Shown one piece after another: positions 5,611-34,367 of a DNA stretch of 60,893 nucleotides. Below the pieces are notes generated by a model that was given only the letters and a program-made list of their open reading frames with translations, ran no database searches and was not told where the DNA came from. This DNA comes from Zoogloeaceae bacterium (GTDB lineage Bacteria; Pseudomonadota; Gammaproteobacteria; Burkholderiales; Rhodocyclaceae). Made by a program: the position numbers and the translations under genes. The stretch covers positions 1 through 60,893 of the forward strand of contig JAITMP010000037.1 in the NCBI GenBank assembly GCA_031277315.1, given 5' to 3'. Position 1 is the stretch's first letter. Each line of letters begins with the position of its first letter.

Positions 5611-5647
5611 GGCGGCGGGGAAAGTCAGCCCATGAAAAGACGGCGGA

Positions 5648-11456: not shown

Positions 11457-11484
11457 AAATTTCTTAGTAGAGGAGGAGTACGTG

Positions 11485-12987: not shown

Positions 12988-13003
12988 TACCGGCTTGATT
13001 TAA

Positions 13004-13046
13004 CCCACCGGCCCGGCGGCGACGCCTCCGAGCCCGGGCCGGTGGG
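13004..13046 (+). terminator. Strong hairpin between UbiD-like and UbiX genes
   Basis: Perfect 13-bp arms (cccaccggcccgg at 13004-13016 and its complement at 13034-13046) with a 17-nt loop are followed by ctttct. This looks like a terminator or attenuator inside the presumed operon, and could lower UbiX relative to UbiD expression. Confidence 0.6.
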
Positions 13047-13073
13047 CTTTCTACCGCTTCAGGAAAACAGTCC

Positions 13074-15735: not shown

Positions 15736-15779
15736 AGCATCCCCAAGTGCTGAACGAAAATTCATAGGAGGAGATCATG

Positions 15780-16844: not shown

Positions 16845-16889
16845 CCCCTTGTTATCGGCGCTGGGGGGTGTGTTGAAGCGGGCTGTTAA

Positions 16890-16918
16890 TTGACATGACG
16901 GCAGTAATTCGGCATGCT
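16890..16918 (+). promoter_or_regulatory. Duplicated promoter before the second binding-protein gene
   Basis: TTGACA (16890-16895), 17-bp spacer, CATGCT (16913-16918). It shares aattcggcatgct with the upstream copy. Further downstream a GGCATGCC palindrome (16948-16955) replaces the TGTTCA/TGAACA arms seen before copy 1, so the two copies may be regulated differently. Confidence 0.55.
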
Positions 16919-17003
16919 GGGAAAATAACAATTATGTCTTTTAACTAGGCATGCCCAAGCGCTCAGCGTATCGGGGATGAGACTCATCAAGGAGGAGGTA
17001 TCC

Positions 17004-18901: not shown

Positions 18902-19749
18902 ACGGCATAACGGCTCAGGCAAACACGGGAAATTTCGTCACGGTCGCGGCGGCGTCCAAAAGGCGCCACCGCCGCTGGAATCTCGGCGTGGTGTTCAACG
19001 ACCGGGTCATGATGATCGCTTCTCCCATCGGCCTGCTGGTGATTTGGGAGCTTGTGGGGCGGGCGGGTTTTCTTGATCAGCGTTATTTCCCGCTGCCCAG
19101 CACGATTTTTCTGGCGCTGAAAACGCTCGCCATTTCGGGCGAGTTGTGGATGAACACCAAGGCCAGCCTGCTGCGGCTGCTGTTCGGTTTCCTGGTTGGC
19201 GGCATTCCGGCGCTCGTCATCGGCATTGCGATGGGCATTTCAAAACCCGTGCGCCTGATTATCGACCCGCTCATCGCGGCAACGTATCCCGTTCCCAAGA
19301 GCGCGATTCTGCCCCTGCTGCTGTTGATCTTCGGTCTTGGCGAAGGCTCGAAAATCGCGATGGTGGCGATCGGGGTGTTCTACCCGATGGTAATCAACGC
19401 GACTTCCGGCGTGCTGACGATCAACAAGACCTATTTCGAGGTCGGCAAGCATTTCAAGGCCAGCCGGTGGCAGGTGTTCCGCACCATCGCCCTGCCGGGG
19501 GCGCTGCCCTTGATCATTGCGGGCACGAAACTGGGCGTCGGCTTCGGTCTCATTCTGATCGCCATCGCCGAAATGGTTGGCGCGAAGGAAGGCTTGGGCT
19601 TCATGATCTGGAACGCCTGGGAATTGCTGGCGGTCGACGTGATGTATGCCGGTATCCTGACGATTGCCGTGATTGGTTTTGTGTTGTCGCTGCTTTTCAA
19701 CGAGGTTGAATGGCTGCTGGTGCCCTGGAACAGGGACAAGGATCGCTAA
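18898..19749 (+). CDS. ABC importer permease (SsuC/TauC-like)
   Basis: 283 residues with about six transmembrane helices after a basic 30-residue N-terminus. The BPD_transp_1 EAA-type loop is visible as EVGKHFKASRWQVFRTIALPGALPLIIAGTKLGVGFGLI (residues about 180-220). It forms the channel for the ligands of the two binding proteins upstream. A hairpin terminator follows at 19763-19799. Confidence 0.93.
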   Translation: MNGITAQANTGNFVTVAAASKRRHRRWNLGVVFNDRVMMIASPIGLLVIWELVGRAGFLDQRYFPLPSTIFLALKTLAISGELWMNTKASLLRLLFGFLVGGIPALVIGIAMGISKPVRLIIDPLIAATYPVPKSAILPLLLLIFGLGEGSKIAMVAIGVFYPMVINATSGVLTINKTYFEVGKHFKASRWQVFRTIALPGALPLIIAGTKLGVGFGLILIAIAEMVGAKEGLGFMIWNAWELLAVDVMYAGILTIAVIGFVLSLLFNEVEWLLVPWNRDKDR

Positions 19750-19807: not shown

Positions 19808-20290
19808 TCAGTCGCCGGATAACGGCAAAAGGCGCTCGCGGTGGGCGAAGCCGAGCGTGTTGTCGATCAGGTAAATCTCCTCCGGCATCAATTCGTACCA
19901 GCGGATCTTGTCCAGCGCTTCGAGGATTTTGCGCGGGATACCGGCGCCGCCGCCGATGAGGGGATAGCGGCGCTGATAGAGGGCGCGCACGCGGGCTTCA
20001 TCTTCCGGCGCGACCACGCGCGCCTGACCGGCGAGTTGCAGACCGCGGATGCCGGGCCAGTTATCGTAGTCGCGCTGAATGGTGACGGCCGCGCGCGGAT
20101 CGGCGGCAAGATGCCGGGCGTGGCGCGAAGTCGGCGACGAGAGAAAGTAGAGACGCGCCGCCGGCGCGGTTTCCTCGAAAACATAAAACACCGCCGCCGC
20201 CCAGGGGCCATCCGCGCCGGTGGTGGACAGCGTCATGACGTGATGCGCGCCGAGAAAGTCGAGCACGCGCTGGCGCAAAGTTCCGTTCAT
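19808..20290 (-). CDS. Pyridoxamine 5'-phosphate oxidase-like FMN-binding protein
   Basis: 160 residues with the split-barrel flavin-binding pattern: MTLSTTGADGPWAAAVFYVFEE near residue 19, LYFLSSPTSRHARHLAADPRAAVTIQRDYDNWPGIRGLQLAGQARVV, then a C-terminal YLIDNTLGFAHRE. Members bind FMN, F420 or heme. The start overlaps the stop of the sigma-54 activator gene, so the two are probably cotranscribed from the activator promoter. A role in flavin or redox chemistry of phenol metabolism is possible but unproven. Confidence 0.82.
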   Translation of the reverse strand: MNGTLRQRVLDFLGAHHVMTLSTTGADGPWAAAVFYVFEETAPAARLYFLSSPTSRHARHLAADPRAAVTIQRDYDNWPGIRGLQLAGQARVVAPEDEARVRALYQRRYPLIGGGAGIPRKILEALDKIRWYELMPEEIYLIDNTLGFAHRERLLPLSGD

Positions 20291-22005
20291 GTTTTCCCCA
20301 TGATGACATCCGCCTTGGCCTGGCCGCTTTCCTGCATGCGCTTCAGCCGGTAGGCGAGTTGCGGACGGGTGATGCCGAGCAGCCGCGCCGCCGATGAGAG
20401 GTTGTTCTTCGCTTTCGCCACCGCCGCTTCAAGCAGCATGGATTCCACTTCGTCGAGTGTGCACACGCCGTTCAGCACCGCCTCGCACAGTCTGGCGCCG
20501 GACTGCCAACTCTGCGCGTTGAGCGCGCCGTCGGCGTCCAGCCCGAGTTCGGATGGCTGCCCGTCGCGTTTGGCGAGGAACAGATGTTCGGCTTCGACGC
20601 GCGTGCCGGGTGGCGCCAGAATCACGCTGCGCTCGATGACGTTCTGCAATTCGCGGATATTGCCCGGCCAGTTGTAGGAGAGCAGGGCGCGCTTCGCCTT
20701 GTCGGTGAAGCCGCGCAGCTTTTTGCCGTGCAGGGTGGCGTATTTGTCGATGAACGCTTTCGACAGCGGCGAGATGTCTTCCTTGCGCTCGCGCAGCGGC
20801 GGGATGTGAACCTGATAGGCGTTGAGACGGTAGTAAAGATCGAGGCGGAAGCGGCCTTCCTGCACCAGCCGCGACAGATCGGCGTTGGTCGCCGCCACCA
20901 CGCGCACATCCACCCGTCGCGGCCGGGTGTCGCCGAGGCGTTCGATCTCGCCTTCTTGCAGCACGCGCAGCAGCTTGGCCTGGGCCGGGGACGGCAGGTC
21001 GCCGACTTCGTCGAGGAACAAGGTGCCGCCGCTGGCGCGCTCAAAGCGGCCGGGGCGCGAGGACTGCGCGCCGGTGTAAGCGCCTTTTTCGACGCCGAAG
21101 AGTTCCGCTTCGACCAGTTCCGGCGGGATGGCGGCGCAGTTGACGGCGACGAACGGCCCGTTCGCGCGCGGGCTGCAGCCGTGCAGGGCGCGCGCGAAAA
21201 CTTCCTTGCCGACGCCGGTTTCGCCCAGCAGCAGCACCGGAATCTGGCTGTCCGCCGCCCGCTTGAGTAAACCGTAGGCCTGACGGAAGCCGGGCGAAGT
21301 GCCGATCATGTGTTTCGGCAGCGATTCCTTTTCGCCGATCGACGAGCGCAAGTGCGTGACCTGCGTTTGCAGGTCGATGAGCTGGTCGGCGATGGATTCC
21401 GGGTTGTAGTAGCGCAGGTGTTCTTCGGCGTTGTCCCATTCCTCGACCGGCTTGCCGATGATGCGGCAGTCGCTGTTGCCGGCGCCGACGCATTCGGTTT
21501 CCTGATACAGGATGCGCCGACCCATGAAGGCCGAGGTGTAGCCGGAGGCGTAGCCGATTTGCGTCCAGCATACCGGCTCGTGGTGAATGCCGTAGTACTG
21601 GCGATGCGATTGCCCCTCCCAGGAATTTTCCCAGAGGAATTCGCCGTAGAAATGGCCGCGCGGCCGATCCATTTCGACGCGGATCGGCGTCACGCGCACG
21701 ATGCCTTCCAGCGTGTGCAGCTTGGGCCCGGTCATGAAGGCTTCCATGTCGTCGACATCCTGCATCTGTTTGCGCGCCAGTTCGGCGTCGCGCATGCCCG
21801 AGGCGTAGCCCATGCGCGTGAGCAGTCCGCGCGCGCGCGCCATGCCGAGCGTGTCGATGAGTTCCTTGCGCAGCAAAGCCTGCGCTTCCGCATGCACCAG
21901 CAGCATGCGGTGCTCGTGCAGCCAGATCTGGCCGGTTTCGGCGCAGAAATGAATGTGCGAGCGCATGTCGTCGGCCGCCTTGGCGACCGAAGTCAGTTTG
22001 CGCAT
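20287..22005 (-). CDS. Sigma-54-dependent phenol sensor/activator (MopR/DmpR/XylR type)
   Basis: 572 residues from ATG 22005, chosen because AAGGAGGAG precedes it; an ATG at 22023 lies upstream of that ribosome site. Domains: XylR_N sensor, V4R (about 130-185), B-linker, AAA+ core with Walker A GETGVGKE (261-268), GAYTGA (308-313; Tyr replaces the usual Phe of GAFTGA), Walker B TLFLDE, and a C-terminal Fis-type HTH ([22 protein letters not shown]). Spacing of H97, W125, C146, E169, C172 and C180 matches, with constant offset, the phenol contacts (H106, W134) and zinc ligands (C155, E178, C181, C189) that I recall for MopR. It diverges from ppsA and should activate it with phenol as ligand. 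Confidence 0.94.
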
Positions 22006-22108
22006 TTTCTTCTCCTCCTTCATATCGGCTGCGGCTTTTTATCAAATCATCAACTGCCGCATACCGGTTTTACTTGCAGCCCGGCCCGCAACAGCGGGGG
22101 CGGAGGCT

Positions 22109-22433: not shown

Positions 22434-24269
22434 ATGAAATTTCCTGATCCGCATGACGTGAAAGCCCAGACGATTCCCGGCACCGAAGGCTGGGAGCGCA
22501 TGTATCCGTACCAGTACCAGTTCGTTACCGACGATCCGGTGCGCAACCAGTACGAGAAGGAAATGTTCTGGTTCCACGACGGCCTGCATTATCCTGAGCC
22601 GCTGTATCCCTTCGACACCATTTGGGACGAAGCCTGGTATCTGGCGCTGTCGCAGTTCAACAACCGTATTTTCATGGTGCCGCCGGTGCGCGGCGTCGAT
22701 CACCGCGTCATCAACGGCTATATCTACATTTCGCCGGTGCCGGTGAAAAATCCGGATGAAATCGGCAGTCGCGTGCCGCATTTCATGGAGCGCGCCGGTT
22801 ATTACTACAAAAACTGGGACGCGCTGGAGAAGAAGTGGAAGGTGAAGATGGAAGCCGCCATTCGCGAGCTGGAAAAGCTGGAAATTCCGCGTCTGGCCGA
22901 CATGGAAGACATCGCGGTGGTGAACGACGCCATCGGCGAGTCGAAAGGCTACCATTTGCTGAAGAACTACGACGATTTGATCAACCTCGGCATCAAGTGC
23001 TGGCAATATCACTTCGAGTTCCTCAACCTCGGTTATGCCGCTTACGTTTTCTTCCTCGATTTCGTGCAGAAGCTGTTCCCGAGCGTTCCGGCGCAGCGCG
23101 TGACGCAGATGATCTCCGGCATCGACGTCATCATGTATCAGCCCGACGAGGAACTGAAAAAACTCGCCAAGCTCGCCATTGAACTGGGCGTCGACGGCCT
23201 CGTCACCTCCAGTCAGGAGTGGACCGAGGTCGAGGCGGCGCTGAAAAAAGCGCCGAAGGGCGTCGAGTGGCTGACCTCGCTCAATCTTTCGCGCCAGCCC
23301 TGGTTCAACGTGTCGACCGGCACCGGCTGGTTCCATCACGACCGTTCCTGGAACGACGCCATGAACGTGCCGCTGAACGGCATCCAGACCTACATCCAGA
23401 AAGTCAAACAGGGCGTCAACATCGAGCGGCCCACCGAGCAGGTGCGCGCCGAGCGCGACCGCATTACCGCCGAGTATCGCGGCCTCATCGAGAGCGAGGC
23501 GGATCGCAAGCAGTTCGACGAACTGCTCGGCTGCGCGCGGACGGTGTTCCCCTACGTCGAGAACCACCTGTTCTACGTCGAGCACTGGTTCCATTCGGTG
23601 TTCTGGAACAAGATGCGCGAAGTGGCGGCGATCATGAAAGAGCATGGCGTCATCAACGACATCGAGGATGTCTGGCTGCTGCGCCGCGACGAAATCAAGC
23701 AGGTGCTGTGGGACATCGTGACTGCCTGGGCCACCGGCGTCACCCCGCGCGGCACGCAGACCTGGCCGAAGGAAATCGAGTGGCGCAAGGGCGTCATGCA
23801 GAAATTCAGGGAATGGAGCCAGCCGCCGGCCATCGGCACCGCGCCGGAAGTGATTCAGGAGCCGTTCACCATCGTCCTCTGGGGCGTCACCAACAGTTCG
23901 CTGACCGACTGGGCCGCGGTGGCGGAGGTGAAGGATCCGGGCAGCGTCAAGGAGTTCAAGGGCTTTGCCGGCAGCCCCGGCATCGTCGAAGGCAAGGCGC
24001 GCGTCTGCCGCACGGTGGATGACGTCCGCTCCTTGCAGGAGGGCGAGATTCTCGTCGCGCCCACCACCTCGCCGTCCTGGGCGCCGGCGTTCGCCAAGAT
24101 CAAGGCCTGCGTCACCGACGTCGGCGGCGTCATGAGCCACGCGGCGATTGTCTGCCGCGAGTACGGCATGCCGGCGGTGGTCGGCACGGGCCACGCCACC
24201 AAGATCGTCCAGACCGGCATGACGATCCGCGTCGACGGCTCGACCGGCGTCATCACGGTGGCGCGTTGA
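22434..24269 (+). CDS. ppsA: Phenylphosphate synthase subunit A (PEP synthase C-terminal-like)
   Basis: 611 residues, about 70 kDa, like Thauera PpsA. Most of the protein is the phenol-specific region; the C-terminal quarter is the PEP-utilising mobile swivel domain with GGVMSHAAIVCREYGMPAVVG, whose catalytic His is residue 569. In the family, ATP phosphorylates this His with release of AMP and Pi, and the phosphoryl group is passed to phenol, giving phenylphosphate. The ribosome site gaggagg precedes ATG 22434. It is first in a long plus-strand operon driven by the sigma-54 promoter. PpsB supplies the ATP-grasp half. Confidence 0.96.
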   Translation: MKFPDPHDVKAQTIPGTEGWERMYPYQYQFVTDDPVRNQYEKEMFWFHDGLHYPEPLYPFDTIWDEAWYLALSQFNNRIFMVPPVRGVDHRVINGYIYISPVPVKNPDEIGSRVPHFMERAGYYYKNWDALEKKWKVKMEAAIRELEKLEIPRLADMEDIAVVNDAIGESKGYHLLKNYDDLINLGIKCWQYHFEFLNLGYAAYVFFLDFVQKLFPSVPAQRVTQMISGIDVIMYQPDEELKKLAKLAIELGVDGLVTSSQEWTEVEAALKKAPKGVEWLTSLNLSRQPWFNVSTGTGWFHHDRSWNDAMNVPLNGIQTYIQKVKQGVNIERPTEQVRAERDRITAEYRGLIESEADRKQFDELLGCARTVFPYVENHLFYVEHWFHSVFWNKMREVAAIMKEHGVINDIEDVWLLRRDEIKQVLWDIVTAWATGVTPRGTQTWPKEIEWRKGVMQKFREWSQPPAIGTAPEVIQEPFTIVLWGVTNSSLTDWAAVAEVKDPGSVKEFKGFAGSPGIVEGKARVCRTVDDVRSLQEGEILVAPTTSPSWAPAFAKIKACVTDVGGVMSHAAIVCREYGMPAVVGTGHATKIVQTGMTIRVDGSTGVITVAR

Positions 24270-24286
24270 GCGGAGCGAACCACGGT

Positions 24287-25417
24287 ATGACTATGGCATC
24301 AGAACGAAGCCCGGCAGCGATGCGTGAAGACGCGCCGCAAGTGTGCTGGTTCGAGGAAGTGCGCAAGGAGGATGTCGCGCTGGTCGGCGGCAAATGTTCC
24401 TCGCTTGGCGAACTGATCCGCGCCGGCGTGCGCGTGCCGCCGGGTTTCGCGCTGACCACCCACGGCTTCGCGCGCTTCATGCGCGACGCCGGGGTGAGCG
24501 GCGAGATTCCCGGCATGCTTGGCGGCGTGCCGCACGACGACCTTGGACGTCTGGAAGACGTGAGTCAGGCGATCCGCGCCATGATCGAAGAACACCCCTT
24601 CGCCTGGGAGCTGGAAGACGCCATCGCCGAGTATTACCGCCGGCTTTCCGTGCGCTGCATGGTGCCGGCGGTGCCGGTGGCGGTGCGCTCCAGCGCCACC
24701 GCCGAGGATCTGCCCGGCGCCAGCTTCGCCGGACAGCAGGATACTTATCTGTGGATTCGCGGCGTGGACGATTTGCTCCATCACGCCCGCCGCTGCATCT
24801 CCAGCCTGTTCACGGCGCGGGCGATTTCCTACCGCATCAAGATGGGTTTCCCGCACGAGGACGTGGCGCTCTCGGTCGGCTTCCAGAAGATGGCCAACTC
24901 TTATGCCGCCGGCGTGATGTTCACGCTCAACCCCGGCAACGGCGACCGCTCCGTCATCGCCATTGATTCCAACTTCGGTTTCGGCGAGTCGGTCGTCTCC
25001 GGCGAGGTGACGCCGGATCACTTCGTCGTAAACAAGGTCACGCTCGACATTCTCGAACGCACCATCTGCAACAAGGAAATCACCTACACGGTGGATTTGA
25101 AAACGCAGAAGTCGGTGAAGATCGAAACGCCTTTCGAACGTCAGGACACGCAATCCATCATCGACGAGGAAATCATCGAACTGGCGCGCATGGGCAAGGC
25201 GATCGAAAAGCACTACGGCCGCCAGATGGATATCGAGTGGGCGGTGGACAAGGATCTGCCCGCCGGCGGCAACATCTTCATCCTGCAAGCGCGCCCCGAA
25301 ACGGTGTGGAGCGAGAAGCGCGCGAAGGAATCCACGGAGTCCGCCAGCGCGGCAAAGGCCGCTTCGGCGATGGACTTCATTCTCTCCAGCCTGCTGACCG
25401 GAAAGAAAGTCTCATGA
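24287..25417 (+). CDS. ppsB: Phenylphosphate synthase subunit B (PEP synthase N-terminal ATP-binding)
   Basis: 376 residues from ATG 24287. An in-frame TTG at 24266 overlaps the ppsA stop and is an alternative start. The PPDK_N ATP-grasp fold shows ALVGGKCSSLGEL, VAVRSSATAEDLPGASFAGQQDTYL (about residues 125-150), GVMFTLNPGNGDRS and IDSNFGFGESVVSGEVTPDHF, ending in a QARPET motif. It binds ATP and phosphorylates the catalytic His of PpsA; split of PEP synthase into two chains is the hallmark of phenylphosphate synthase. The stop overlaps the ppsC start (ATGA). Confidence 0.95.
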   Translation: MTMASERSPAAMREDAPQVCWFEEVRKEDVALVGGKCSSLGELIRAGVRVPPGFALTTHGFARFMRDAGVSGEIPGMLGGVPHDDLGRLEDVSQAIRAMIEEHPFAWELEDAIAEYYRRLSVRCMVPAVPVAVRSSATAEDLPGASFAGQQDTYLWIRGVDDLLHHARRCISSLFTARAISYRIKMGFPHEDVALSVGFQKMANSYAAGVMFTLNPGNGDRSVIAIDSNFGFGESVVSGEVTPDHFVVNKVTLDILERTICNKEITYTVDLKTQKSVKIETPFERQDTQSIIDEEIIELARMGKAIEKHYGRQMDIEWAVDKDLPAGGNIFILQARPETVWSEKRAKESTESASAAKAASAMDFILSSLLTGKKVS

Positions 25418-26124
25418 TCGTACGCAACTGGATGCAACAGGAGCCGACGCTGGTCAGCGGCGACACGCTGCTGGCGGAGGCCAAGCGCCTGCTCACCGAG
25501 CACAATCTGCAAGCCATTCCGGTGGTCGATGATGGCCGCCTGCGTGGCATCGTTACGCGCCAGCACTGCCTGCGCGCGGCGCATTTCGTCGCCCGCACGC
25601 AAAGCGCCGATGAATACCGTTTCTTCGCCGACCGCCTCAAGGTGAAAGACATCATGGTGCGCAATCCGGCGACGGTAAGCGCCGGCGACACCATGGAGGA
25701 ATGCCTGCGCCGCGGGCAGGAACTCAGCGTCGGTCAGTTCCCGGTCATGGAAGACGGCAAGGTGGTCGGCGTCATTTCCTCGACGGAGGTTTTCTCGCTG
25801 GCGGCGCATTTTCTCGGCGCCTGGGAGAAACGCTGCGGCCTTACGCTGGGCCCGATGGAAATGAAGCCCGGCGTCATTGGCCGCATCGCCGATCTGGTGG
25901 ACGGCGCCGGGGCCGAGGTGCAGGCGATTTATCCGATCGCCAGCAACGGCGGCAACGGCGGCAAGGGTGGCAAGGGTGGCAAGGGCGAGGGTGGACGATC
26001 ACGCCAGCGCAAGATCATCGTCCGCTTTCATGCCGCCGATCTGAAGAAAGTGATCGCCGTGCTGGAAGCCGCCGGCTTTCATGTCATCGAGTCCATCGAT
26101 GCGCGCCACGAAGAACAACATTGA
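25414..26124 (+). CDS. ppsC: Phenylphosphate synthase subunit C (CBS-domain stimulator)
   Basis: 236 residues, about 25 kDa. Two CBS domains: MIVRNWMQQEPTLVSGDTL ... AIPVVDDGRLRGIVTRQ (1-55) and VKDIMVRNPATVSAGDTMEECL ... QFPVMEDGKVVGVISSTEV (about 75-130). The C-terminal part resembles a small regulatory domain (KIIVRFHAADLKKVIAVLEAAGFHV). Between them is a Gly/Lys low-complexity linker (GGNGGKGGKGGKGEGG near residue 180). The Thauera 24-kDa subunit strongly stimulates the A+B synthase. The longer frame reaching upstream to 25237 overlaps ppsB and is not the real start. Confidence 0.93.
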   Translation: MIVRNWMQQEPTLVSGDTLLAEAKRLLTEHNLQAIPVVDDGRLRGIVTRQHCLRAAHFVARTQSADEYRFFADRLKVKDIMVRNPATVSAGDTMEECLRRGQELSVGQFPVMEDGKVVGVISSTEVFSLAAHFLGAWEKRCGLTLGPMEMKPGVIGRIADLVDGAGAEVQAIYPIASNGGNGGKGGKGGKGEGGRSRQRKIIVRFHAADLKKVIAVLEAAGFHVIESIDARHEEQH

Positions 26125-26145: not shown

Positions 26146-27564
26146 ATGGATTTGCGATACTTCATCAACCAGTGCGCCGAAGCTAACGAGCTGAAGCGTG
26201 TCAAGGCGGAAGTCGACTGGAATCTGGAGATTTCCCACGTCTCCAAGCTGACCGAGGAGAAAAAAGGCCCGGCCCTGCTGTTCGAGAACGTGAAGGGTTA
26301 CAGCAGCCCGGTGTTTACCGGCGCTTTCGCCACCACCAAGCGCCTCGCCATCATGCTCGGCCTGCCGCACAACCTGTCGATGTGCGAATCAGCGCAAGCC
26401 TGGATGAAGAAAACCATCACCTCCGAGGGCCTCATCAAGGCGAAGGAAGTCAAGGACGGCCCGGTGCTGGAAAACATTCTCTCCGGCGACAAGGTCGACC
26501 TCAACATGTTCCCGGTGCCGAAATTTTTCCCGCTCGACGGCGGCCGCTACATCGGCACCATGGTGTTCGTCGTGCTGCGCGACCCGGAGACGGGCGAAAC
26601 CAATCTCGGCACGTATCGCATGCAGATGCTCGACAACAAGACCTGCGGCGTGCAGATTCTGCCGGGCAAGCGCGGCGAGCGCATCATGAAAAAATACGCC
26701 AAGCTGGGCAAGAAGATGCCGGCTGCCGCGGTGATCGGCTGCGATCCGCTGATCTTCATGGCGGGCACCCTGATGCACAAGGGCGCCAATGACTTTGACA
26801 TCACCGGCACGGTGCGCGGTCAGCCGGCTGAATTTCTCATGGCGCCGCTGACCGGCCTGCCGGTGCCGGCCGGCGCCGAGATCGTGCTGGAAGGCGAAAT
26901 CGACCCGAACAACTTCCGTCAGGAAGGCCCCTTCGCCGAATACACCGGCTACTACACCGACGAACTGCACAAGCCGATTCTCAAGCCGGCGCTGGAAGTG
27001 AAGCAGATTCTTCACCGCAACCAGCCGGTTTTGTGGGCGACGGGACAGGGCCGTCCGGTCACCGACGTGCACATGCTGCTCGCCTTCACCCGCACCGCCA
27101 CGCTGTGGACGGAACTGGAAAAAATGAAAATCCCCGGCGTGCAATCGGTGTGCGTGCTGCCCGAATCGGCGGGCCGCTTCTGGGCCGTCGTCTCCCTCAA
27201 GCAATCCTATCCCGGCCACTCGCGCCAGGTCGCCGACGCCGTCATCGGCAGCAACACCGGCTCCTACGGCATCAAGGGCGTCATCACGGTGGATGAAGAC
27301 ATCATGGCCGACGATTTGCAGCGGGTGATGTGGGCGCTGTCGTGCCGCTACGATCCGATGCGCGGCACGGAACTCATCAAGCGCGGCCGCTCGACGCCGC
27401 TTGATCCGGCGCTCGATCCGAATTCGGACAAGCTCACCACCTCGCGCATCCTGATGGACGCCTGCATTCCCTACGAGTGGAAACAGAAGCCGGTCGAAGC
27501 GCGCATGGACGAGGAGATGCTGGCGAAGATTCGCGGCCGCTGGGCCGAGTACGGCATTGATTGA
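26146..27564 (+). CDS. Phenylphosphate carboxylase UbiD-like subunit (about 53 kDa)
   Basis: 472 residues of the UbiD family: FFPLDGGRYIGTM, NLGTYRMQML, VIGCDPLIFMAG, EGPFAEYTGYY near residue 263, and a C-terminal DEDIMADDLQRVMWALSCRYDP. With the second UbiD-like chain and the 10-kDa chain it should form the carboxylating core that exchanges CO2 with 4-hydroxybenzoate in Thauera; the phosphatase-like chain enables phenylphosphate use. Which alpha/beta letter applies is left open. The segment aligned with the E. coli UbiD metal His reads QILPGKRGE, without a His. Seven or so bases after an acagga ribosome site; 21 bp after ppsC. Confidence 0.92.
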   Translation: MDLRYFINQCAEANELKRVKAEVDWNLEISHVSKLTEEKKGPALLFENVKGYSSPVFTGAFATTKRLAIMLGLPHNLSMCESAQAWMKKTITSEGLIKAKEVKDGPVLENILSGDKVDLNMFPVPKFFPLDGGRYIGTMVFVVLRDPETGETNLGTYRMQMLDNKTCGVQILPGKRGERIMKKYAKLGKKMPAAAVIGCDPLIFMAGTLMHKGANDFDITGTVRGQPAEFLMAPLTGLPVPAGAEIVLEGEIDPNNFRQEGPFAEYTGYYTDELHKPILKPALEVKQILHRNQPVLWATGQGRPVTDVHMLLAFTRTATLWTELEKMKIPGVQSVCVLPESAGRFWAVVSLKQSYPGHSRQVADAVIGSNTGSYGIKGVITVDEDIMADDLQRVMWALSCRYDPMRGTELIKRGRSTPLDPALDPNSDKLTTSRILMDACIPYEWKQKPVEARMDEEMLAKIRGRWAEYGID

Positions 27565-27579: not shown

Positions 27580-28086
27580 ATGGATAAAGCGAAGGGCATC
27601 AAGCTGGTGATTCTCGATGTCGACGGCGTCATGACGGATGGCCGCATCGTCATCGACGACAATGGCGTTGAGCAGCGCAATTTCGACATCAAGGACGGCT
27701 TCGGCGTCGTTGCGCTGCAAATGACCGGCATCGACGTCGCCATCATCACCTCGAAGAAATCCGGCGCCGTGCGCCACCGCGCCGAGGAACTGAAAATCAA
27801 GCGTTTCCACGAGGGCATCAAGAAGAAGGTCGAGCCGTACGAGGAGATCCTGAAGGAGATGAACATCACCGACGCCGACGTCTGCTATGTCGGCGACGAT
27901 CTGGTCGATCTTTCGATGATGCGGCGCGTCGGCCTGCCGGTCGCCGTTGCCGATGCCGTGGAGGAAGTCAAGGACGCCGCCGGTTACATCACGATGGCAT
28001 GCGGCGGACATGGCGCCGTGCGCGAGGTGGCCGAGATGATCCTCAAGGCGCAGGGCAAGTGGGACAAGATTCTTTCCAAGATTTAA
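27580..28086 (+). CDS. Phenylphosphate carboxylase 18-kDa HAD-type subunit
   Basis: 168 residues of the KdsC-like HAD phosphatase family. Motif I is LDVDGVMTDG (Asp nucleophile about residue 13, acid/base Asp 15), motif II IITSKKS, motif III Lys in EGIKKKVEPY, and motif IV VGDDLVDLSMM. Size and placement between two UbiD-like genes match the 18-kDa Thauera subunit that is needed for carboxylation of phenylphosphate but not for CO2 exchange with 4-hydroxybenzoate. It likely handles dephosphorylation coupled to carboxylation in the cytoplasmic complex. Confidence 0.93.
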   Translation: MDKAKGIKLVILDVDGVMTDGRIVIDDNGVEQRNFDIKDGFGVVALQMTGIDVAIITSKKSGAVRHRAEELKIKRFHEGIKKKVEPYEEILKEMNITDADVCYVGDDLVDLSMMRRVGLPVAVADAVEEVKDAAGYITMACGGHGAVREVAEMILKAQGKWDKILSKI

Positions 28087-28106
28087 CCCAGCAAGGAGAA
28101 CGCAAA

Positions 28107-29555
28107 GTGGCCGCACCGCGCAGCAACAGGGAATTCATCGAGGCCTGCATCAAGAGCGGCGACGCCGTTCACATCAAGCAGGAAGTCGATTGGGAAAACG
28201 AGGCCGGTGCCATCGTGCGCCGCGCCTGCGAACTGGCGGCGCCGGCGCCGTTCATGGAAAAGATCAAGGGCTATCCTGGCTTCTCCTACTTTGGCGCGCC
28301 CTTGTCGACTTACCGGCGGATGGCGATTTCGCTCGGCATGGATCCGGCTTCCCGCCTGCCGGAAATCGGCAAGGAATATTTGAAGCGCACCAACAGCGAG
28401 CCGATCGCGCCGGTGCTGGTCGACAAAAAAGATGCGCCCTGCAAGGAGAACATCCTGAAGGGCGCCGATGTCGATCTGTGCAAATTGCCGATCCCGCTGG
28501 TGCATGAGGGCGATGGTGGCCGCTACGTCGGCACCTGGCATGCCGTGGTGACCAAGCACCCGGTGCGCGGCGACGTGAACTGGGGCATGTACCGGCAGAT
28601 GATGTTCGACTCGCGCACCATGTCGGGCGCGGTGTTTCCCTTCTCCGATCTCGGCAAGACCCTGAACGATTATTACCTGCCGCGCGGCGAGAGCTGCCCG
28701 TTCGCCACCGCCATCGGCCTTTCGCCGCTGGCCGCCATGGCCGCCTGCGCGCCCTCACCGATTCCCGAGCCGGAACTGACCGGCATGCTGGCCGGCGAGG
28801 CGGTCAAGCTGGTGAAGTGCGAAACCAACGATCTGCAAGTGCCGGCCGATGCCGAAATCATTCTCGAAGGCGAAATCTGCCCCGACTACACAGTCGAGGA
28901 AGGCCCGTTCGGCGAATACACCGGCTACCGCACCAGCCCGCGCGATTTCCGCGTCACCTTCCGCGTCAACTGCATCACCTATCGCAACAACGCGACGATG
29001 ACCATCTCCAACATGGGCGTGCCGCAGGACGAGGGGCAGTTGCTGCGCTCCTTCTCGCTCGGGCTGGAACTGGAGAAACTGCTGCGCAGCCAGGGCATCC
29101 CGGTCACCGGCGTGTACATGCACCCGCGCTCGACGCACCACATGATGATCGTCGGCGTGAAGCCGACGTACGCCGGCATCGCCCAGCAAGTCGGTCAGCT
29201 TGCCTTCGGTTCCAAGCTCGGCCCCTGGTTCCACATGGTGATGGTGGTCGACGACAAAACCGACATCTACAACTGGGACGAGGTCTACCACGCGTTCTGC
29301 ACGCGCTGCCACCCGGCCAACGGCATCCACATCTACCGCAATGCGCCCGGCACGCCGCTGTATCCCTTCGCCACGCCGCACGAGCGCAAGTACGCGGTCG
29401 GATCGAAGGTCGTGTTCGATTGCCTGTGGCCGGTCGACTGGGATCCGGTCAACGACGTGCCGACTTTGGTTTCGTTCAAGAATGTCTATCCGCAGGCGAT
29501 TCAGGATAAAGTGCTGGCGAACTGGACGGCCTACGGCTACCCCCCCGTGAAGTGA
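28107..29555 (+). CDS. Phenylphosphate carboxylase UbiD-like subunit (about 54 kDa)
   Basis: 482 residues from GTG 28107, which follows AAGGAG; the frame extends back to 27999 but that part overlaps the HAD gene. UbiD segments: LVHEGDGGRYVGTWH, NWGMYRQMMF, IGLSPLAAMAACAP, EGPFGEYTGYRTSP near residue 264, and MVVDDKTDIYNWDEVYHAFCTRCHP. It is only distantly similar to the 53-kDa partner. At the aligned metal-His region it reads AVFPFSDLGK. In Thauera the two UbiD-like chains and the 10-kDa chain form the carboxylase core. Confidence 0.92.
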   Translation: MAAPRSNREFIEACIKSGDAVHIKQEVDWENEAGAIVRRACELAAPAPFMEKIKGYPGFSYFGAPLSTYRRMAISLGMDPASRLPEIGKEYLKRTNSEPIAPVLVDKKDAPCKENILKGADVDLCKLPIPLVHEGDGGRYVGTWHAVVTKHPVRGDVNWGMYRQMMFDSRTMSGAVFPFSDLGKTLNDYYLPRGESCPFATAIGLSPLAAMAACAPSPIPEPELTGMLAGEAVKLVKCETNDLQVPADAEIILEGEICPDYTVEEGPFGEYTGYRTSPRDFRVTFRVNCITYRNNATMTISNMGVPQDEGQLLRSFSLGLELEKLLRSQGIPVTGVYMHPRSTHHMMIVGVKPTYAGIAQQVGQLAFGSKLGPWFHMVMVVDDKTDIYNWDEVYHAFCTRCHPANGIHIYRNAPGTPLYPFATPHERKYAVGSKVVFDCLWPVDWDPVNDVPTLVSFKNVYPQAIQDKVLANWTAYGYPPVK

Positions 29556-29567: not shown

Positions 29568-29822
29568 ATGAATCAGTGGGAAGTTTTCGTCAATGACGTA
29601 AAAGAACTGGCCGAGGATACCGAACTGGAATTGACGGTGCGCACGCTCAATCCCGGCCCGCATAAATTTACCTACAAGCGCGTGCGCTGCCAGGTTTCGA
29701 GCGACTTGAAAAAGCACGCCGACCAGTTGCAGGTGCGCCTTGGCCGCGGCCAGCTCAGCCAGAGCCGTTTCTCCATCGCGGTGCTGGGCGAAGTCCGCCG
29801 CCTGCCGGCAAAATATGCGTAG
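29568..29822 (+). CDS. Phenylphosphate carboxylase 10-kDa subunit
   Basis: 84 residues, about 9.7 kDa, with no recognisable domain beyond its match in size and place to the small unique carboxylase subunit of Thauera. It is charged and soluble (MNQWEVFVNDVKELAED ... VRCQVSSDLKKHADQLQVRLG). A gaggaga ribosome site precedes the ATG; gaps are 12 bp upstream and 6 bp downstream, implying strict cotranscription. In Thauera this chain is required with the two UbiD-like chains for CO2 exchange. Confidence 0.85.
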   Translation: MNQWEVFVNDVKELAEDTELELTVRTLNPGPHKFTYKRVRCQVSSDLKKHADQLQVRLGRGQLSQSRFSIAVLGEVRRLPAKYA

Positions 29823-29828: not shown

Positions 29829-31172
29829 ATGGCTTATTCTGACCTGCGCAGTTTTCTCGACGATCTGGCCGATGACCTGATCCGCGTGCGCGAGCCGCTC
29901 GATCCGCGTTTCGAGATCGCCGCGCTGCTCGCTGAAGTGCAAAAGAGCGGCAAGGCGGTGCTCTTCGAGGGCGTGAAAGGGCGGCCCGGTCAGCGCGTCG
30001 CCGGCAACCTGCTCGCCAGCCGGCGGCTGGCGGCACGTGCCCTCGGCGTCAGCGAGGACAATCTCATCGCCACCTACACGGCGCGCAGCGCGCAGCGCGT
30101 GCCGCCGGTGCTGGCGAAAGAAGCGCCGGCGCAAACGGTCGTGCATCGCGATCCGGCCGACATCGCCGCCCTGCTGCCGCTGCTCACGCACTACGAAAAA
30201 GACGCCGCGCCTTTTCTCACCTGCGGCATGGTGCTGGCGCGCGATCCGGCCACCGGCCAGCGTGGCATGGGCATTCACCGCATGATGTTCAAGGGCGGCA
30301 GGCGCTTCGGCATCCTGCTCGCCAATCCGCCGCTATCGCAATTCCTCGCCAACGCCGAAGCGTCGGGCAAGCCGCTGGAGATCGCCATCGCGCTCGGCGT
30401 CGATCCGGCCATGCTGATTGCATCGGTGGTGAAAACCGGCCCGCTCGGCCCGGACAAGATGGAAATCGCCGGCAGCTTGCGCGGCGCGCCGGTCGAACTC
30501 GCGCGCGGCGTGACGGTGGATGTCGAAGTGCCGGCGCGCGCCGAGGTGGTGCTGGAAGGCCGCGTCCTGCCCGGTGTGCGCGAACCCGAAGGCCCGTTCG
30601 GCGAGAACACCGGCTACTACTTCATGAACACCAGCCCGGTGATCGAGATCAGCGCCGTTACGCATCGCGAGAATTTTATTTTTCCGGCGCTGGTGCCCTG
30701 GACGGCGGATGTCGACACCCTGCTCTCGCTCGCCGGCGGCGCTGAACTGTTCGGCCAGCTCAGGGGTTTGGTGCGCGGCGTGGTCGATCTCGACATCGTG
30801 CCCGGCACGTGCAGCTTCGGCGCCGTGATCGCCGTCAACAACTGCCCATCGCATGAAGTGCGCCGCTTGATTTACCTCGCGCTCACGCTCGACCGCCGTT
30901 TGAAATCGGTGACGGTGGTGAATGACGACGTGAACATCCGCGATCCGCGCGAGGTGGCCTGGGCGCTCGCCACGCGCTTTCAGCCCGAGCGCGACACGGT
31001 GATATTGAGCGGGCTGGAAGGGTATGTCATCGACCCGTCTTCCGCCGGCGGCATCGGCTCGAAGATGGGCTTCGACGCCACGCGCGGCGCCGGCGCGGAT
31101 TTCGACCGCATCCTCATTCCCGCCGCCGCTGCCGCGCGCGCGCGTGAAGTTGCGGCGGCGATCAGTACGTGA
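29829..31172 (+). CDS. Third UbiD-family (de)carboxylase in the phenol operon
   Basis: 447 residues and more classical than the two Ppc chains: GMGIHRMMF, IALGVDPAMLIAS, SLRGAPVELARGVTVDVEVPARAEVVLEG, EGPFGENTGYYF near residue 255, VVNDDVNIRDPREVAWALATRFQP, and the C-terminal GSKMGFDAT that canonical UbiD proteins have. It is not one of the four named Ppc subunits. It may be a monomeric-type hydroxybenzoate decarboxylase, or a homologue of ubiquinone UbiD. Directly followed by UbiX copy 2. Six bases separate it from the 10-kDa gene. Confidence 0.88.
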   Translation: MAYSDLRSFLDDLADDLIRVREPLDPRFEIAALLAEVQKSGKAVLFEGVKGRPGQRVAGNLLASRRLAARALGVSEDNLIATYTARSAQRVPPVLAKEAPAQTVVHRDPADIAALLPLLTHYEKDAAPFLTCGMVLARDPATGQRGMGIHRMMFKGGRRFGILLANPPLSQFLANAEASGKPLEIAIALGVDPAMLIASVVKTGPLGPDKMEIAGSLRGAPVELARGVTVDVEVPARAEVVLEGRVLPGVREPEGPFGENTGYYFMNTSPVIEISAVTHRENFIFPALVPWTADVDTLLSLAGGAELFGQLRGLVRGVVDLDIVPGTCSFGAVIAVNNCPSHEVRRLIYLALTLDRRLKSVTVVNDDVNIRDPREVAWALATRFQPERDTVILSGLEGYVIDPSSAGGIGSKMGFDATRGAGADFDRILIPAAAAARAREVAAAIST

Positions 31173-31213: not shown

Positions 31214-31804
31214 ATGAAAATCGTGGTCGGCATTTCCGGCGCCAGCGGCGCCATTTACGGCGTTCGCATTCTCGAAGTGCTGGCCAAAGCCGGCGTCGAG
31301 ACGCATCTCGTCATGTCGGATTCGGCCAAGCGCACCATCGTGTACGAAACCGAGCGCAGCATCGACGACATCAAGCGCCTCGCCGCTCACGTGCACGACA
31401 TCAACGACGTCGGCGCCTGCATCTCCTCGGGCAGCTTCCGCCACGCCGGCATGATTATCGCGCCCTGCTCGATCAAGACGCTCTCGGCGATCGCCAATTC
31501 CTTCAACGCCAATCTGCTCATCCGCGCCGCCGACGTGACGTTGAAGGAGCGCCGGAAACTGGTGCTGATGATGCGCGAGACGCCGCTGCATCTGGGCCAC
31601 CTGCGCCTGATGACGCAGGTGACGGAAGCCGGCGCCGTGCTGGTGCCGCCGCTGCCGGCGTTCTACCACCGGCCAAAGACGCTCGAAGACATCATCATGC
31701 AGTCGGTGAACAAGGCGCTCGATCAATTCGATCTCGATCTCGATCTGTTCAAGCGCTGGACCGGCAATGAGGAGCGGGAGACGCTGAAACAGCGGCAGCC
31801 GTAG
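31214..31804 (+). CDS. ubiX: UbiX-family flavin prenyltransferase (copy 2)
   Basis: 196 residues. Segments GISGASGAIYG, SGSFRHAGMIIAPCSIKTLSAIANSFNANLLIRAADVTLKERRKLVLMMRETPLHLGHLRLM and PPLPAFYHRP are UbiX/Pad1 hallmarks. It should make prenyl-FMN for the UbiD-type proteins encoded just upstream. A UbiX-like gene also belongs to the Thauera phenol cluster. The tandem-repeat leader (31178-31210) is unusual. Confidence 0.93.
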   Translation: MKIVVGISGASGAIYGVRILEVLAKAGVETHLVMSDSAKRTIVYETERSIDDIKRLAAHVHDINDVGACISSGSFRHAGMIIAPCSIKTLSAIANSFNANLLIRAADVTLKERRKLVLMMRETPLHLGHLRLMTQVTEAGAVLVPPLPAFYHRPKTLEDIIMQSVNKALDQFDLDLDLFKRWTGNEERETLKQRQP

Positions 31805-31860: not shown

Positions 31861-32012
31861 AAATTGTTGTAGTCCAAACTATTGCAAGTCCAACAAAATT
31901 CGCGTACGCTCCACCCGGAATCAAGGGACGCCATGCCGGACAGGATGGCATCTGCGGCGCGATGGATGACGGATCACGGGTTCGTCAGACAGGCAGACGC
32001 GGAGGCGTGGCG

Positions 32013-32432
32013 ATGACGGTAACGGAACGGATAGCGGAAGCGGACACACTGTTGTTGACGGGTGAGGCTTGTTCCGGCTTTGGCGAAGGCGCCGGCTTCA
32101 CGCAGCTTGCGTGGGTGCGGCGCGCGTTTCTCGCCAGACTCGGTTTTGCGCCCTACCCCGGCACGTTCAATCTGCGCATGAGCGGCGCCGAGTGGGAGGC
32201 GGCGCGGGCCGTGATGGCGGGCAAGCCCGGCATCATCATCGCGCCGGAAGCCGGTTTTTGCGCGGCAAAGTGTTTTCACGTGGTGATCGGTGGTCGTATC
32301 ACCGGCGCGGCGGTGTTTCCCGAGGTAAGCGATTACCCGGTCGACAAGCTCGAAGTGATTTCCGCCGTATCGGTGCGCCAGGCGCTGGGCGTAAAAGACG
32401 GCGATCCGGTTGCCGTCAGCGTGGTGTGTTGA
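32013..32432 (+). CDS. DUF120 CTP-dependent riboflavin kinase homologue (archaeal RibK type)
   Basis: 139 residues from ATG 32013 (GGAGG 7 bp upstream; an ATG at 31962 lacks a ribosome site). It aligns along its whole length with the archaeal RibK pattern as I recall it for MJ0056: GEACSGFGEGAGF (nucleotide loop, residues 17-29), LGFAPYPGTFNLRM (about 45-58), and the C-terminal GRITGAAVFPEVSDYPVDKLEVISAV..RQALGVKDGDPVAVSV. Archaeal enzymes make FMN from riboflavin with CTP; bacteria normally use RibF. Placed among UbiD and UbiX genes it could supply FMN for prenyl-FMN. Catalytic competence is not proven from sequence. Confidence 0.82.
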   Translation: MTVTERIAEADTLLLTGEACSGFGEGAGFTQLAWVRRAFLARLGFAPYPGTFNLRMSGAEWEAARAVMAGKPGIIIAPEAGFCAAKCFHVVIGGRITGAAVFPEVSDYPVDKLEVISAVSVRQALGVKDGDPVAVSVVC

Positions 32433-32463
32433 GCGCCGGGTTGCCGCCCCCGGGTTGCCGCCC

Positions 32464-32988
32464 TTGAGCCGGACGCGCCATTGCCAGCATTGCGGCGCTG
32501 CGCTGACGGCGCTGGTGTGCGCCGACGGCAAAACGCGCGAGCGGTGTGAGCGCTGCGGCCTCATCGCCTGGCGCAATCCGGCGCCGGTCGGCATGGCCCT
32601 GATCGAGCGCGAAGGCAAGCTGGTGCTGATCCGCCGTCAAGCCGACCCGCTCGCCGGCTACTGGGCGCCGCCGGCGGGTTATGTGGAACGCGGCGAATCC
32701 GTGCCGCAGGCGGTGCTGCGCGAGGCGAAGGAAGAGACGGGTCTGGATATCGCGCTCGACGGTCTGCTCGACGTGTATTCGCGGGCCGATGTCGATGTGC
32801 TGATCGTCGCCTACCGCGCGCATGCCGTCGGCGGACGGCTGGTGGCGGGCGATGACGCCAGCGAAGCCGGCCTGTTCGCGCCGGACGCATGGCTGCGTGA
32901 GCCGCAAGCGCCGCCGCCGGTTGGCGGCGCGGCGGTGGATGAATGGTTCTATGGCGTCATCCGCGACGCGGTCGCGCGCTGGCGTTGA
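32464..32988 (+). CDS. NUDIX hydrolase with N-terminal zinc ribbon
   Basis: About 174 residues. An N-terminal four-Cys ribbon (CQHCGAAL ... CERCGL) precedes the NUDIX box GYVERGESVPQAVLREAKEETGLD (residues about 73-96; G-x5-E-x7-REAxEETGx). Such proteins hydrolyse nucleoside diphosphate derivatives such as ADP-ribose, NADH or CoA. A MutT-like gene is, to my memory, also present at the end of the Thauera phenol cluster. The start is uncertain: TTG 32464 is chosen, but TTG 32410 or 32455 are possible and no ATG is available. No clear ribosome site is seen. Confidence 0.82.
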   Translation: MSRTRHCQHCGAALTALVCADGKTRERCERCGLIAWRNPAPVGMALIEREGKLVLIRRQADPLAGYWAPPAGYVERGESVPQAVLREAKEETGLDIALDGLLDVYSRADVDVLIVAYRAHAVGGRLVAGDDASEAGLFAPDAWLREPQAPPPVGGAAVDEWFYGVIRDAVARWR

Positions 32989-33068: not shown

Positions 33069-34367
33069 ATGACCTATTTCGACCAGACCGTTGAAACCTT
33101 GCCGCGTGAGCAGCTCGCCGCATTGCAATTTTCAAAGCTGCAAGCGATGGTCAAGGAGTTGTGGGGCAAAAACCGTTTCTATACTGAAAAGTGGAAGCAG
33201 GCCGGCATACAGCCGGACGATTTGAAATCAATCGATGATCTGGCGCGGCTGCCGTTTACCATCAAGCATGAATTGATGACGGATCAGGCCGCCCATGGCC
33301 CCTTCGGCAGCAACCTCACCTATCCGGTCAGTCAGTACGTGCGCTTTCACCAGACCTCCGGCTCCACCGGCGTGCCGCTCAAAGTGCCCGACACCGAGGA
33401 AAACTGGCGGTGGTGGGGCCGCTGCTGGGGACATGTGCTGGCGGGCGCCGGCGTCACCGCCGCCGATCGCATTTTCATGGCCTTTTCCTTTGGCCCCTTC
33501 GTCGGCTTCTGGGCCGCCACCGAAGGCGCGCGCCAATTGGGGTGCATGATGATTCCGGGCGGTGGGCGCGATTCGTTGCAGCGCCTCGAACTGATGAGCA
33601 GCACCGGCGCGTCGGTGCTCTGCTGCACGCCGACCTATGCGCTGCGCCTGGCGGAAGTGGCGCGCGAAACCGGCTTTGATCTTTCCAGCATTCCGCTGAA
33701 AGCCACGGTGAACGCCGGCGAGCCGGGCGCCAACGTGCTGTCGACCAAGACGCGCATTCAGGAAGCGTGGAACGCCAAGTGCTTCGATCACGCCGGCGCC
33801 ACCGAGATCGGCGCGTTTTCCTTCGAGTGCCAGGTCCAGCCGGGCGGCATTCATGTCATCGAAAGCGAATTCATCGCCGAGGTGCTCGATCCGCTCACCG
33901 GCCAGCCGGTGGCGGAGGGCGAGCGCGGCGAACTGACACTCACCAACCTTGGCCGCTGGGGTTTCCCGATCATTCGCTACAAGACCGGCGATGTCGTGCG
34001 CGCCACCACGCAACGCTGCGACTGCGGCCGCACGTCGATGCGTCTTGAAGGCGGTATTCTCGGCCGCGCCGACGACATGGTGACGGTGCGCGGCGTAAAC
34101 GTCTTCCCGGCCGGCGTCGAGAACATCCTGCGCAAGTTCGCCGAGGTGGACGAGTTCCGCGTCACCATCAGCAAGGTGCGGCATATGGACGAGATGGATG
34201 TCGAGGTCGAATTGTGCGAAGGCGCCGATCCGAAAGTCGTGCATGCCATCGCCGAGCGCCTCGATGCGATGCTCTCCTTCCGCCCGCGCGTGCATCATGT
34301 GGCGCGTGAATCGCTGCCGCGCTTCGAGTTGAAGGCCAAGCGCTTCCACGTCAAGCGCGACGCCTGA
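33069..34367 (+). CDS. PaaK-type aryl-CoA ligase (phenylacetate-CoA ligase family)
   Basis: 432 residues from ATG 33069, after tttggagatc; the frame opens at 32943 inside the NUDIX gene. The adenylate-forming PaaK signature is clear: RFHQTSGSTGVPLKV (P-loop, about residue 93), HAGATEIG, GELTLTNLGRWGFPIIRYKTGDVV, and the C-terminal GRADDMVTVRGVNVFPAGVE with hinge and lysine region (LKAKRF). It would convert an aromatic acid plus CoA and ATP to aryl-CoA, AMP and PPi. Following the phenol carboxylase genes, 4-hydroxybenzoate is the obvious candidate, though the known 4-hydroxybenzoate-CoA ligases are usually of another subgroup. Confidence 0.88.
   Translation: MTYFDQTVETLPREQLAALQFSKLQAMVKELWGKNRFYTEKWKQAGIQPDDLKSIDDLARLPFTIKHELMTDQAAHGPFGSNLTYPVSQYVRFHQTSGSTGVPLKVPDTEENWRWWGRCWGHVLAGAGVTAADRIFMAFSFGPFVGFWAATEGARQLGCMMIPGGGRDSLQRLELMSSTGASVLCCTPTYALRLAEVARETGFDLSSIPLKATVNAGEPGANVLSTKTRIQEAWNAKCFDHAGATEIGAFSFECQVQPGGIHVIESEFIAEVLDPLTGQPVAEGERGELTLTNLGRWGFPIIRYKTGDVVRATTQRCDCGRTSMRLEGGILGRADDMVTVRGVNVFPAGVENILRKFAEVDEFRVTISKVRHMDEMDVEVELCEGADPKVVHAIAERLDAMLSFRPRVHHVARESLPRFELKAKRFHVKRDA

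Follow-up and report, generated by a model that had tools for sequence, protein, structure and literature searches.

A PF01982 gene, putatively for an extra riboflavin kinase, in the phenol operon of a Zoogloeaceae bacterium, and its association with UbiX and UbiD genes in several bacterial phyla

Why should a bacterium that already possesses the usual flavokinase RibF carry a second, riboflavin kinase-like gene inside an operon for phenol degradation? The question is raised by a 60,893-nucleotide stretch from a Zoogloeaceae bacterium (contig JAITMP010000037.1), referred to here as the window, in which a gene on the forward strand at 32013..32432 encodes a 139-residue RibK-like protein, recognized by Pfam and PDB sequence matches as a putative riboflavin kinase. 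On the evidence of sequence and gene order, it is probably an extra PF01982 riboflavin kinase giving flavin mononucleotide (FMN) for prenyl-FMN synthesis beside the UbiX and UbiD proteins that use it. A preliminary description of this DNA had offered a similar interpretation, which is partly supported as a whole.

PF01982 (CTP-dep_RFKase, or DUF120) is the single Pfam family in the product (100.8 bits against a cut-off of 25, E 6.2e-29), with residues 20-137 aligned to positions 2-121 of the 121-position profile, i.e., the whole domain. Reading of the frame agrees with the preliminary description, which had reported the match along the entire product together with three motifs. Three PDB sequences match the protein at E <= 0.001, all titled riboflavin kinase or MJ0056: two sequences of MJ0056 (6 entries) and 3cta, 'Riboflavin kinase' (2 entries), which we take to be Ta1064. 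The start codon at 32013 is credible despite a further in-frame ATG upstream at 31962, because GGAGG at 32001-32005 lies 7 bases ahead of the ATG and because the beginning M-x-V-x-E occurs in 11 of 14 same-genus alignment rows, one of the other three being truncated by a contig end. Ratios of nonsynonymous to synonymous substitution (dN/dS) between the window gene and 7 congeners range from 0.16 to 0.18, and those of the neighbouring UbiX gene from 0.13 to 0.19, indicating purifying selection within the genus. A chance match or pseudogene is ruled out by the PF01982 score and this selection, and 32013-32432 is confirmed as a genuine PF01982 gene in a phenol operon. No other PF01982 match occurs in the genome, which measures 2.4 Mb and is 98.41% complete. 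RibF, which bacteria usually employ according to the preliminary description, is encoded elsewhere in the same genome (flavokinase PF01687, 132.8 bits), and RibK is therefore an extra enzyme. Since RibF was also present in 12/12 other RibK-bearing genomes tested, RibK appears dispensable for general FMN supply, and the idea that it substitutes for an absent RibF is ruled out.

The gene closely follows phenylphosphate carboxylase within the family, the range over which co-occurrence was surveyed. Among 100 relatives, 15 carried ppcA (TIGR02723 over cut-off), and PF01982 was found in all 15. PF01982 was also present in three more of these relatives (G015, G021, and G051); in G051 ppcA lies in pieces across two contigs, and in G015 a short contig carries RibK together with genes for UbiD, UbiX, Nudix, and ligase (L025). 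When the survey covered 297 family genomes, with ppcA scored at E <= 1e-140, PF01982 occurred in 33 of the 34 ppcA genomes, which come from 7 genera, versus 5 of the 263 without ppcA (Fisher p 2e-37, a value that ignores shared ancestry). In the lone ppcA genome without PF01982 (G328), ppcA lies about 310 bases from a contig end on the downstream side; the five PF01982 genomes without ppcA are G015 and four members of one genus (G021, G125, G172, and G234) that carry RibK as a HAD fusion. Even sampling across the phylum gave PF01982 in 2/398 genomes, namely the window genome and one weak match. The suggestion of the preliminary description that the gene may occur unnamed in other phenol clusters is borne out by these 33 genomes and by the annotated record of Azoarcus sp. 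KH32C, where the counterpart is named 'DUF120 domain-containing protein'. One genome of the survey, G322, harbours two ppcA and three RibK copies (L159 and L160).

RibK lies within a UbiD/UbiX cluster at 15 of 17 first-survey loci (L020-L036); at L034 it directly follows UbiD, with a UbiX past the ligase, and the exceptions are L033, truncated by a contig end, and L036, a RibK-HAD fusion located elsewhere. At all 17 further family loci (L111-L127), UbiD, UbiX, RibK, and Nudix occur in that order. The UbiD-UbiX-RibK cluster is shared by Aromatoleum/Azoarcus phenol (pps-ppc) clusters, with examples in A. buckelii and, continued by Nudix as in the window, in A. toluvorans, A. toluolicum, and plasmid pAZKH of KH32C. 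On this plasmid, ubiX and the 'DUF120' gene share a 4-base overlap. Synteny with UbiD and UbiX, anticipated in the preliminary description, is thereby stronger than predicted, and it extends to other phyla.

After removal of duplicates, neighbours within 1.5 kb were counted at 118 unique RibK places, comprising 87 bacterial and 31 archaeal ones. UbiX or UbiD was found at 60/87 bacterial places, UbiX being the commonest single neighbour counted (55/87), and Nudix at 36/87. At the archaeal places, which represent the 30 best-scoring matches of a sample with a match in 113/120 genomes plus one locus, all from one phylum, UbiX or UbiD occurred at 0/31, nor was any other sought neighbour present; RibF control loci had UbiX or UbiD nearby at 0/12. 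The 87 bacterial places are non-random, many having come from the family to which the window belongs and from a profile that it seeded, and samples taken per phylum are fairer. In these, PF01982 occurs in 25/247 Desulfobacterota and 8/350 Chloroflexota genomes. UbiX or UbiD lies within 1.5 kb at 14 of 28 Desulfobacterota places, and UbiX at 3 of 8 Chloroflexota places, once convergent, once divergent with a HAD-RibK fusion, and once fused to RibK. In a Nitrospinota metagenome-assembled genome (MAG), genes for RibBA, UbiX, and RibK are consecutive (L053). The association of RibK with UbiX and UbiD is accordingly wider than phenol operons, including Desulfobacterota, Chloroflexota, and Nitrospinota. 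One Desulfobacterota contig (G825:C7, about 2500-6300; L190/L195) shows UbiD, HAD, a RibK-HAD fusion, UbiX, and a second RibK consecutively on one strand.

Domain fusions add to this picture. Candidates were initially flagged by shared stop-to-stop frame coordinates and then frame-checked. Of three UbiX flags, only L056 survived, L022 and L027 being rejected as UbiX-RibK fusions. In L056, a locus of a Chloroflexi MAG, UbiX (PF02441 at 17-188) and RibK (PF01982 at 217-336) share one 344-aa frame, on a single MAG contig in which an assembly or sequencing error is possible. In-frame fusions of RibK with a HAD phosphatase domain were found at 14/87 bacterial places, all 14 upheld by the frame check, in both domain orders and in Betaproteobacteria, Chloroflexota, Acidobacteria, and Desulfobacterota. 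RibK precedes HAD in L156 (2833-3876, with a Pfam run), L157, L158, L036, and L058; HAD precedes RibK in L149 (6274-7383, with a Pfam run) and L054 (9284-10396); and the frame check identified further fusions in L173, L182, L186, L188, L190, L191, and L192. Because RibK genes adjoin UbiX, and are once fused to it, a dedicated supply line for prenyl-FMN is suggested.

How far the bacterial proteins resemble archaeal riboflavin kinases was examined in 117 aligned rows (33 archaeal and 84 bacterial), with L033 and L195 (cut or partial) and L196 (weak) excluded here and from the tree. Thr51, Asn53, Pro103, and Glu114 (window numbering) are identical in 117/117 rows, and the Arg122 position holds Arg or Lys in 114 of them. 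The Thr/Asn pair of G-T-x-N is taken by us to provide Mg2+ ligands, and the glycine-rich loop G-x-G-E-G, conserved in 33/33 archaeal rows and also in the window protein, is presumably part of the site for CTP or CDP (cytidine tri- or diphosphate). Two other stretches are nearly invariant in archaea, i.e., R-T-F-G (R in 32, T in 29, F in 32, and G in 32 of the 33 rows) and R-T-H-Y (R in 32, T in 32, H in 31, and Y in 32), the Thr of the latter presumably contacting FMN in MJ0056. At the former, bacterial rows retain F in 69/84, and the Gly is exchanged in 83/84 for a signature Cys found in 0/33 archaeal rows; most bacterial rows read F-C-x-A-K/R-C, with the second Cys in 68/84 bacterial and 10/33 archaeal rows. 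At the latter, Y is retained in 74/84 bacterial rows, R becomes V in 57, and T is kept in 1, the most frequent form being V-x-G/D-Y-P-x-D-K, while Lys occupies window position 112 in 60/84 bacterial and 0 archaeal rows. MJ0056 itself deviates from both stretches.

The signature Cys and the replaced archaeal residues mark the window gene as a putative member of a bacterial RibK subfamily, one that is not simply archaeal. In a tree built from 83 rows (after thinning at 82% identity; 137 columns, short search, 40/80 inner branches unresolved), the archaeal rows fall on one side of a branch with a support of 92 in the SH-aLRT (Shimodaira-Hasegawa-like approximate likelihood ratio test), and the phenol-operon rows form one branch of 25 with a support of 94, including a Chloroflexi and a Rhodospirillales sequence. 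A recent transfer of RibK from an archaeon into the operon is not supported, as the tree separates archaeal rows from bacterial proteins. The label 'archaeal-type' in the preliminary description oversimplifies, given this separation and the missing near-invariant archaeal residues.

Housekeeping RibF normally carries FMN on to flavin adenine dinucleotide (FAD), and for this reason a dedicated FMN supply by RibK is plausible. RibK would turn riboflavin into FMN, and only FMN, next to FMN-using enzymes, with CTP as the putative donor. UbiX, whose substrates are reduced FMN and dimethylallyl monophosphate (DMAP) or dimethylallyl diphosphate (DMAPP) according to PMC6541611, would prenylate this FMN, and the product would be used by phenylphosphate carboxylase, through its UbiD-like subunits, and by the third UbiD. 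A monofunctional kinase, if co-induced with the operon, would keep FMN on hand during heavy production of prenyl-FMN enzymes, and with FMN flowing to UbiX at the point of use, an operon rich in UbiD-type proteins would avoid competition with FAD synthesis by RibF. Observations behind this scheme are the membership of PF01982, the conservation of core residues, purifying selection, the co-occurrence of RibK with ppcA, its adjacency to UbiX or UbiD across phyla, and one UbiX-RibK fusion.

Several findings weigh against it. The RibF of the host already makes FMN, and the ppcA genomes were counted from this family only. In the fairer samples, 5/8 Chloroflexota places are without UbiX and UbiD, and 12/28 Desulfobacterota places have a HAD neighbour or fusion only and 2/28 have neither, one of these two being L193, the same place as L057. 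Among NCBIfam models, the best match of the window protein is PRK14165 (RbkR) at 83.8 bits, under its cut-off of 279, and the archaeal equivalog ribK_Meth (NF040694) gives 59.1 bits, far under 168; since both scores are well below the cut-offs, the protein is, by sequence, a PF01982 member outside the archaeal equivalogs as curated by NCBIfam. Like most bacterial rows, the window protein has other residues in place of the R, T, and G of R-T-F-G and of the R, T, and H of R-T-H-Y, and G-x-G-E-G is relaxed in bacteria (Glu in 56/84 and the last Gly in 44/84 rows). If the presumed residue roles hold, the metal site would be kept, the flavin side changed, and the nucleotide side changed in part of the branch. 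With near-invariant archaeal residues replaced and the loop relaxed, some or all members of the bacterial branch may use another donor or acceptor.

Such replacements leave room for a kinase of RibK fold with a shifted substrate, acting on another compound needed for prenyl-FMN. This might be, for instance, dimethylallyl alcohol, or else a flavin that is prenylated or damaged and, having lost its phosphate, would be salvaged. The appearance of F-C-x-A-K/R-C and V-x-G/D-Y-P-x-D-K in place of R-T-F-G and R-T-H-Y would suit this explanation, as would the RibF already in the host and the tight tie between RibK and UbiX in phenol operons. However, Thr51, Asn53, and Glu114 are unaltered in all rows, some proteins of the wider branch are encoded next to HAD or PNPOx-like genes rather than UbiX, and we know of no PF01982 member with another substrate, so we consider a shifted substrate unlikely. 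In a further scenario, the whole F-C-x-A-K/R-C branch would constitute a dedicated cross-phylum arm of prenyl-FMN supply, with RibK in a channelling complex with UbiX and perhaps with an acceptor shifted to prenylated or dephosphorylated flavin or to dimethylallyl alcohol; this appears doubtful on present evidence, and, if true, prenyl-FMN supply would have a kinase step so far undescribed.

The FMN could also be destined for flavoproteins of the pathway other than UbiX, either UbiD-like carboxylase subunits working with plain FMN or the PNPOx-like protein whose gene adjoins RibK in relatives. A PNPOx-like gene stands behind RibK/Nudix in many relatives, e.g., L026 (9287-9742; slightly short of the Pfam cut-off, 26.9 vs 28.1) and L022 (9051-9506), and, at three Chloroflexota loci that lack UbiX (L150, L151, and L152; PF01243 over cut-off in 3/3), directly after RibK. 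Moreover, FMN was sufficient for phenylphosphoamidate carboxylation in Desulfatiglans anilini, as stated in PMC7500099. Conversely, the PNPOx-like gene is absent after Nudix in the window, where just 80 bases separate the Nudix end (32988) from the ligase start (33069), and UbiX is the neighbour counted most often and once the fusion partner, which makes this destination rather improbable. A different PNPOx-like gene of the window, at 19808-20290 on the reverse strand, lies beside the regulator. As for a mere passenger, acquired long ago and held in the operon by linkage with no important role, the presence of RibF in the host would permit it, whereas purifying selection on RibK, its retention in nearly all ppcA genomes while congeners have lost Nudix or carry it with an internal deletion, and the UbiX links in other phyla make it a very improbable account.

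The Nudix gene adjoining RibK (32410..32988, forward strand) contains a Nudix box and matches PF00293 with 61.4 bits vs 21.1, consistent with the neighbour named in the preliminary description. Its start is uncertain, with in-frame TTG codons at 32410, 32455, and 32464, and its N-terminus gives a weak zinc-ribbon match (PF14803, 19.9 bits, under the cut-off of 25.6). The subfamily is unclear by profile, the best NCBIfam match being NAD diphosphatase with 40.8 of 158 bits; the nearest solved sequence is 3cng, 'NUDIX hydrolase'. Two analogies stand on equal footing. The enzyme could supply DMAP from DMAPP, as E. coli NudJ, NudB, NudF, and NudI are reported to do in PMC12359138, or FMN from FAD, like plant NUDX23 (PMC12840815). 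In a benzene-degrading culture, a NUDIX-like gene sharing a transcript with UbiD/UbiX was taken in PMC5852087 for a hydroxylase candidate, an interpretation to which a cofactor role would be an alternative. The preliminary description went too far in proposing a complete cofactor module, as several clusters with RibK lack Nudix or carry a defective copy: no Nudix match exists at the locus of G002, a complete genome, nor after RibK in L040, L044, L046, and L050, and in G009 (L022, 9523-9819) an internal deletion takes the Nudix box out of the Nudix gene and leaves the adjoining RibK intact. Because Nudix is gone in G002 and internally deleted in G009 with RibK intact, RibK is the more constant operon partner.

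The remainder of the operon, all on the forward strand, conforms to a pps-ppc cluster, in which phenylphosphate carboxylase subunits lie beside pps genes, and these genes upstream of RibK place it inside a phenol operon as previously described. Phenylphosphate synthase components are recognized by domain and position: a PpsA-like protein with the mobile domain of phosphoenolpyruvate utilisers (22434..24269), a PpsB-like protein with a PPDK_N domain (24266..25417), and a CBS-domain protein, PpsC-like by position and domain, with an uncertain start (25237..26124). They are followed by the phenylphosphate carboxylase subunits beta (26146..27564; TIGR02724), HAD-like delta (27580..28086; TIGR02726), and alpha (28104..29555; TIGR02723; start uncertain), all over cut-off, and by the 84-aa gamma subunit (29568..29822), which matches PF09662 with 124.1 bits vs 25 and falls slightly short of the NCBIfam cut-off (TIGR02725, 123.6 bits vs 135.55). 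The third UbiD-like decarboxylase of the operon (29829..31172, by profile matches) and UbiX, directly upstream of RibK (31214..31804; TIGR00421, 244.8 bits vs 108.9), come next, and a PaaK-like coenzyme A ligase, under the NCBIfam PaaK cut-offs, follows the Nudix gene (33069..34367). Divergent from the operon, a PheR/MobR-like sigma-54 activator with XylR_N and V4R domains is encoded on the reverse strand (20287..22023), its best NCBIfam match being the phenol regulator MobR (611.3 bits, under the cut-off of 999).

Four UbiD-like and two UbiX genes had been placed around RibK. This number is correct for the window (UbiD-like starts at 11482, 26146, 28104, and 29829; UbiX at 13074 and 31214) but not for the operon, as one UbiD/UbiX pair (11482-13685) is separated from RibK by about 19 kb on the upstream side, does not belong to the operon, and has no RibK of its own. 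That pair is preceded by a short-chain dehydrogenase gene and followed by one for a GntR-type regulator. Between it and the phenol regulator, two NMT1/THI5-like binding proteins, an ATP-binding cassette (ABC) ATPase, and a permease (15777-19749) possibly serve uptake of an aromatic or pyrimidine-like substrate.

Comparison with known systems emphasizes both kinship and difference. Archaeal RibK (MJ0056; PDB 2p3m, 2oyn, and 2vbs-2vbv) is, like the window protein, a single domain of similar length, aligned over nearly the full length (residues 13-135), and shares the G-x-G-E-G loop, G-T-x-N, and a C-terminal E-x(7)-R; the window protein differs in the R, T, G and R, T, H replacements and in the Cys where archaea have Gly, and, unlike archaeal RibK, it is encoded in a catabolic operon of a bacterium with RibF. 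RbkR (winged helix-turn-helix plus RibK; PRK14165, 3cta) has a kinase domain that aligns with the window protein, which consists of PF01982 only and has no room for a helix-turn-helix in 139 aa. Bacterial RibF (PF01687), a separate gene elsewhere in the genome, belongs to a different Pfam family and converts riboflavin to FMN, the reaction presumed for the window protein. In plants, FMN/FHy (FMN hydrolase and riboflavin kinase) and NUDX23 constitute, on paper, an activity set similar to bacterial RibK with its HAD fusions and Nudix neighbours (PMC12840815). The window cluster with its divergent activator also resembles the pps-ppc cluster and PheR of A. aromaticum EbN1, as presented in PMC10715001. 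The kinase family of plant FMN/FHy has, to our knowledge, no relation to RibK.

In the literature searched, which left most subscription papers and the original Thauera papers outside so that a prior mention is possible, no text linking the phenol-cluster 'DUF120' gene to riboflavin kinase was found, nor any paper pairing phenylphosphate carboxylase with riboflavin kinase or DUF120 with UbiX. Papers naming riboflavin kinase and UbiX concern other subjects, judging by title and the start of the abstract, and those naming CTP-dependent riboflavin kinase and bacteria appear to deal with an archaeon and a halovirus. By term search, 'riboflavin' and 'nudix' are absent from PMC10715001, PMC7500099, PMC13416013, and PMC13101534, and 'DUF120' from the latter three.

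A putative function can nevertheless be offered for a phenol-cluster gene that is publicly labelled 'DUF120 domain-containing protein'. Although UbiD enzymes serve carboxylation chemistry, the origin of the FMN and of the dimethylallyl donor that go into prenyl-FMN is seldom considered, and cofactor supply can limit these enzymes in heterologous hosts. The occurrence of RibK by UbiX or UbiD in several phyla, together with a natural UbiX-RibK fusion, makes it a candidate for prenyl-FMN supply and possibly a practical helper gene.
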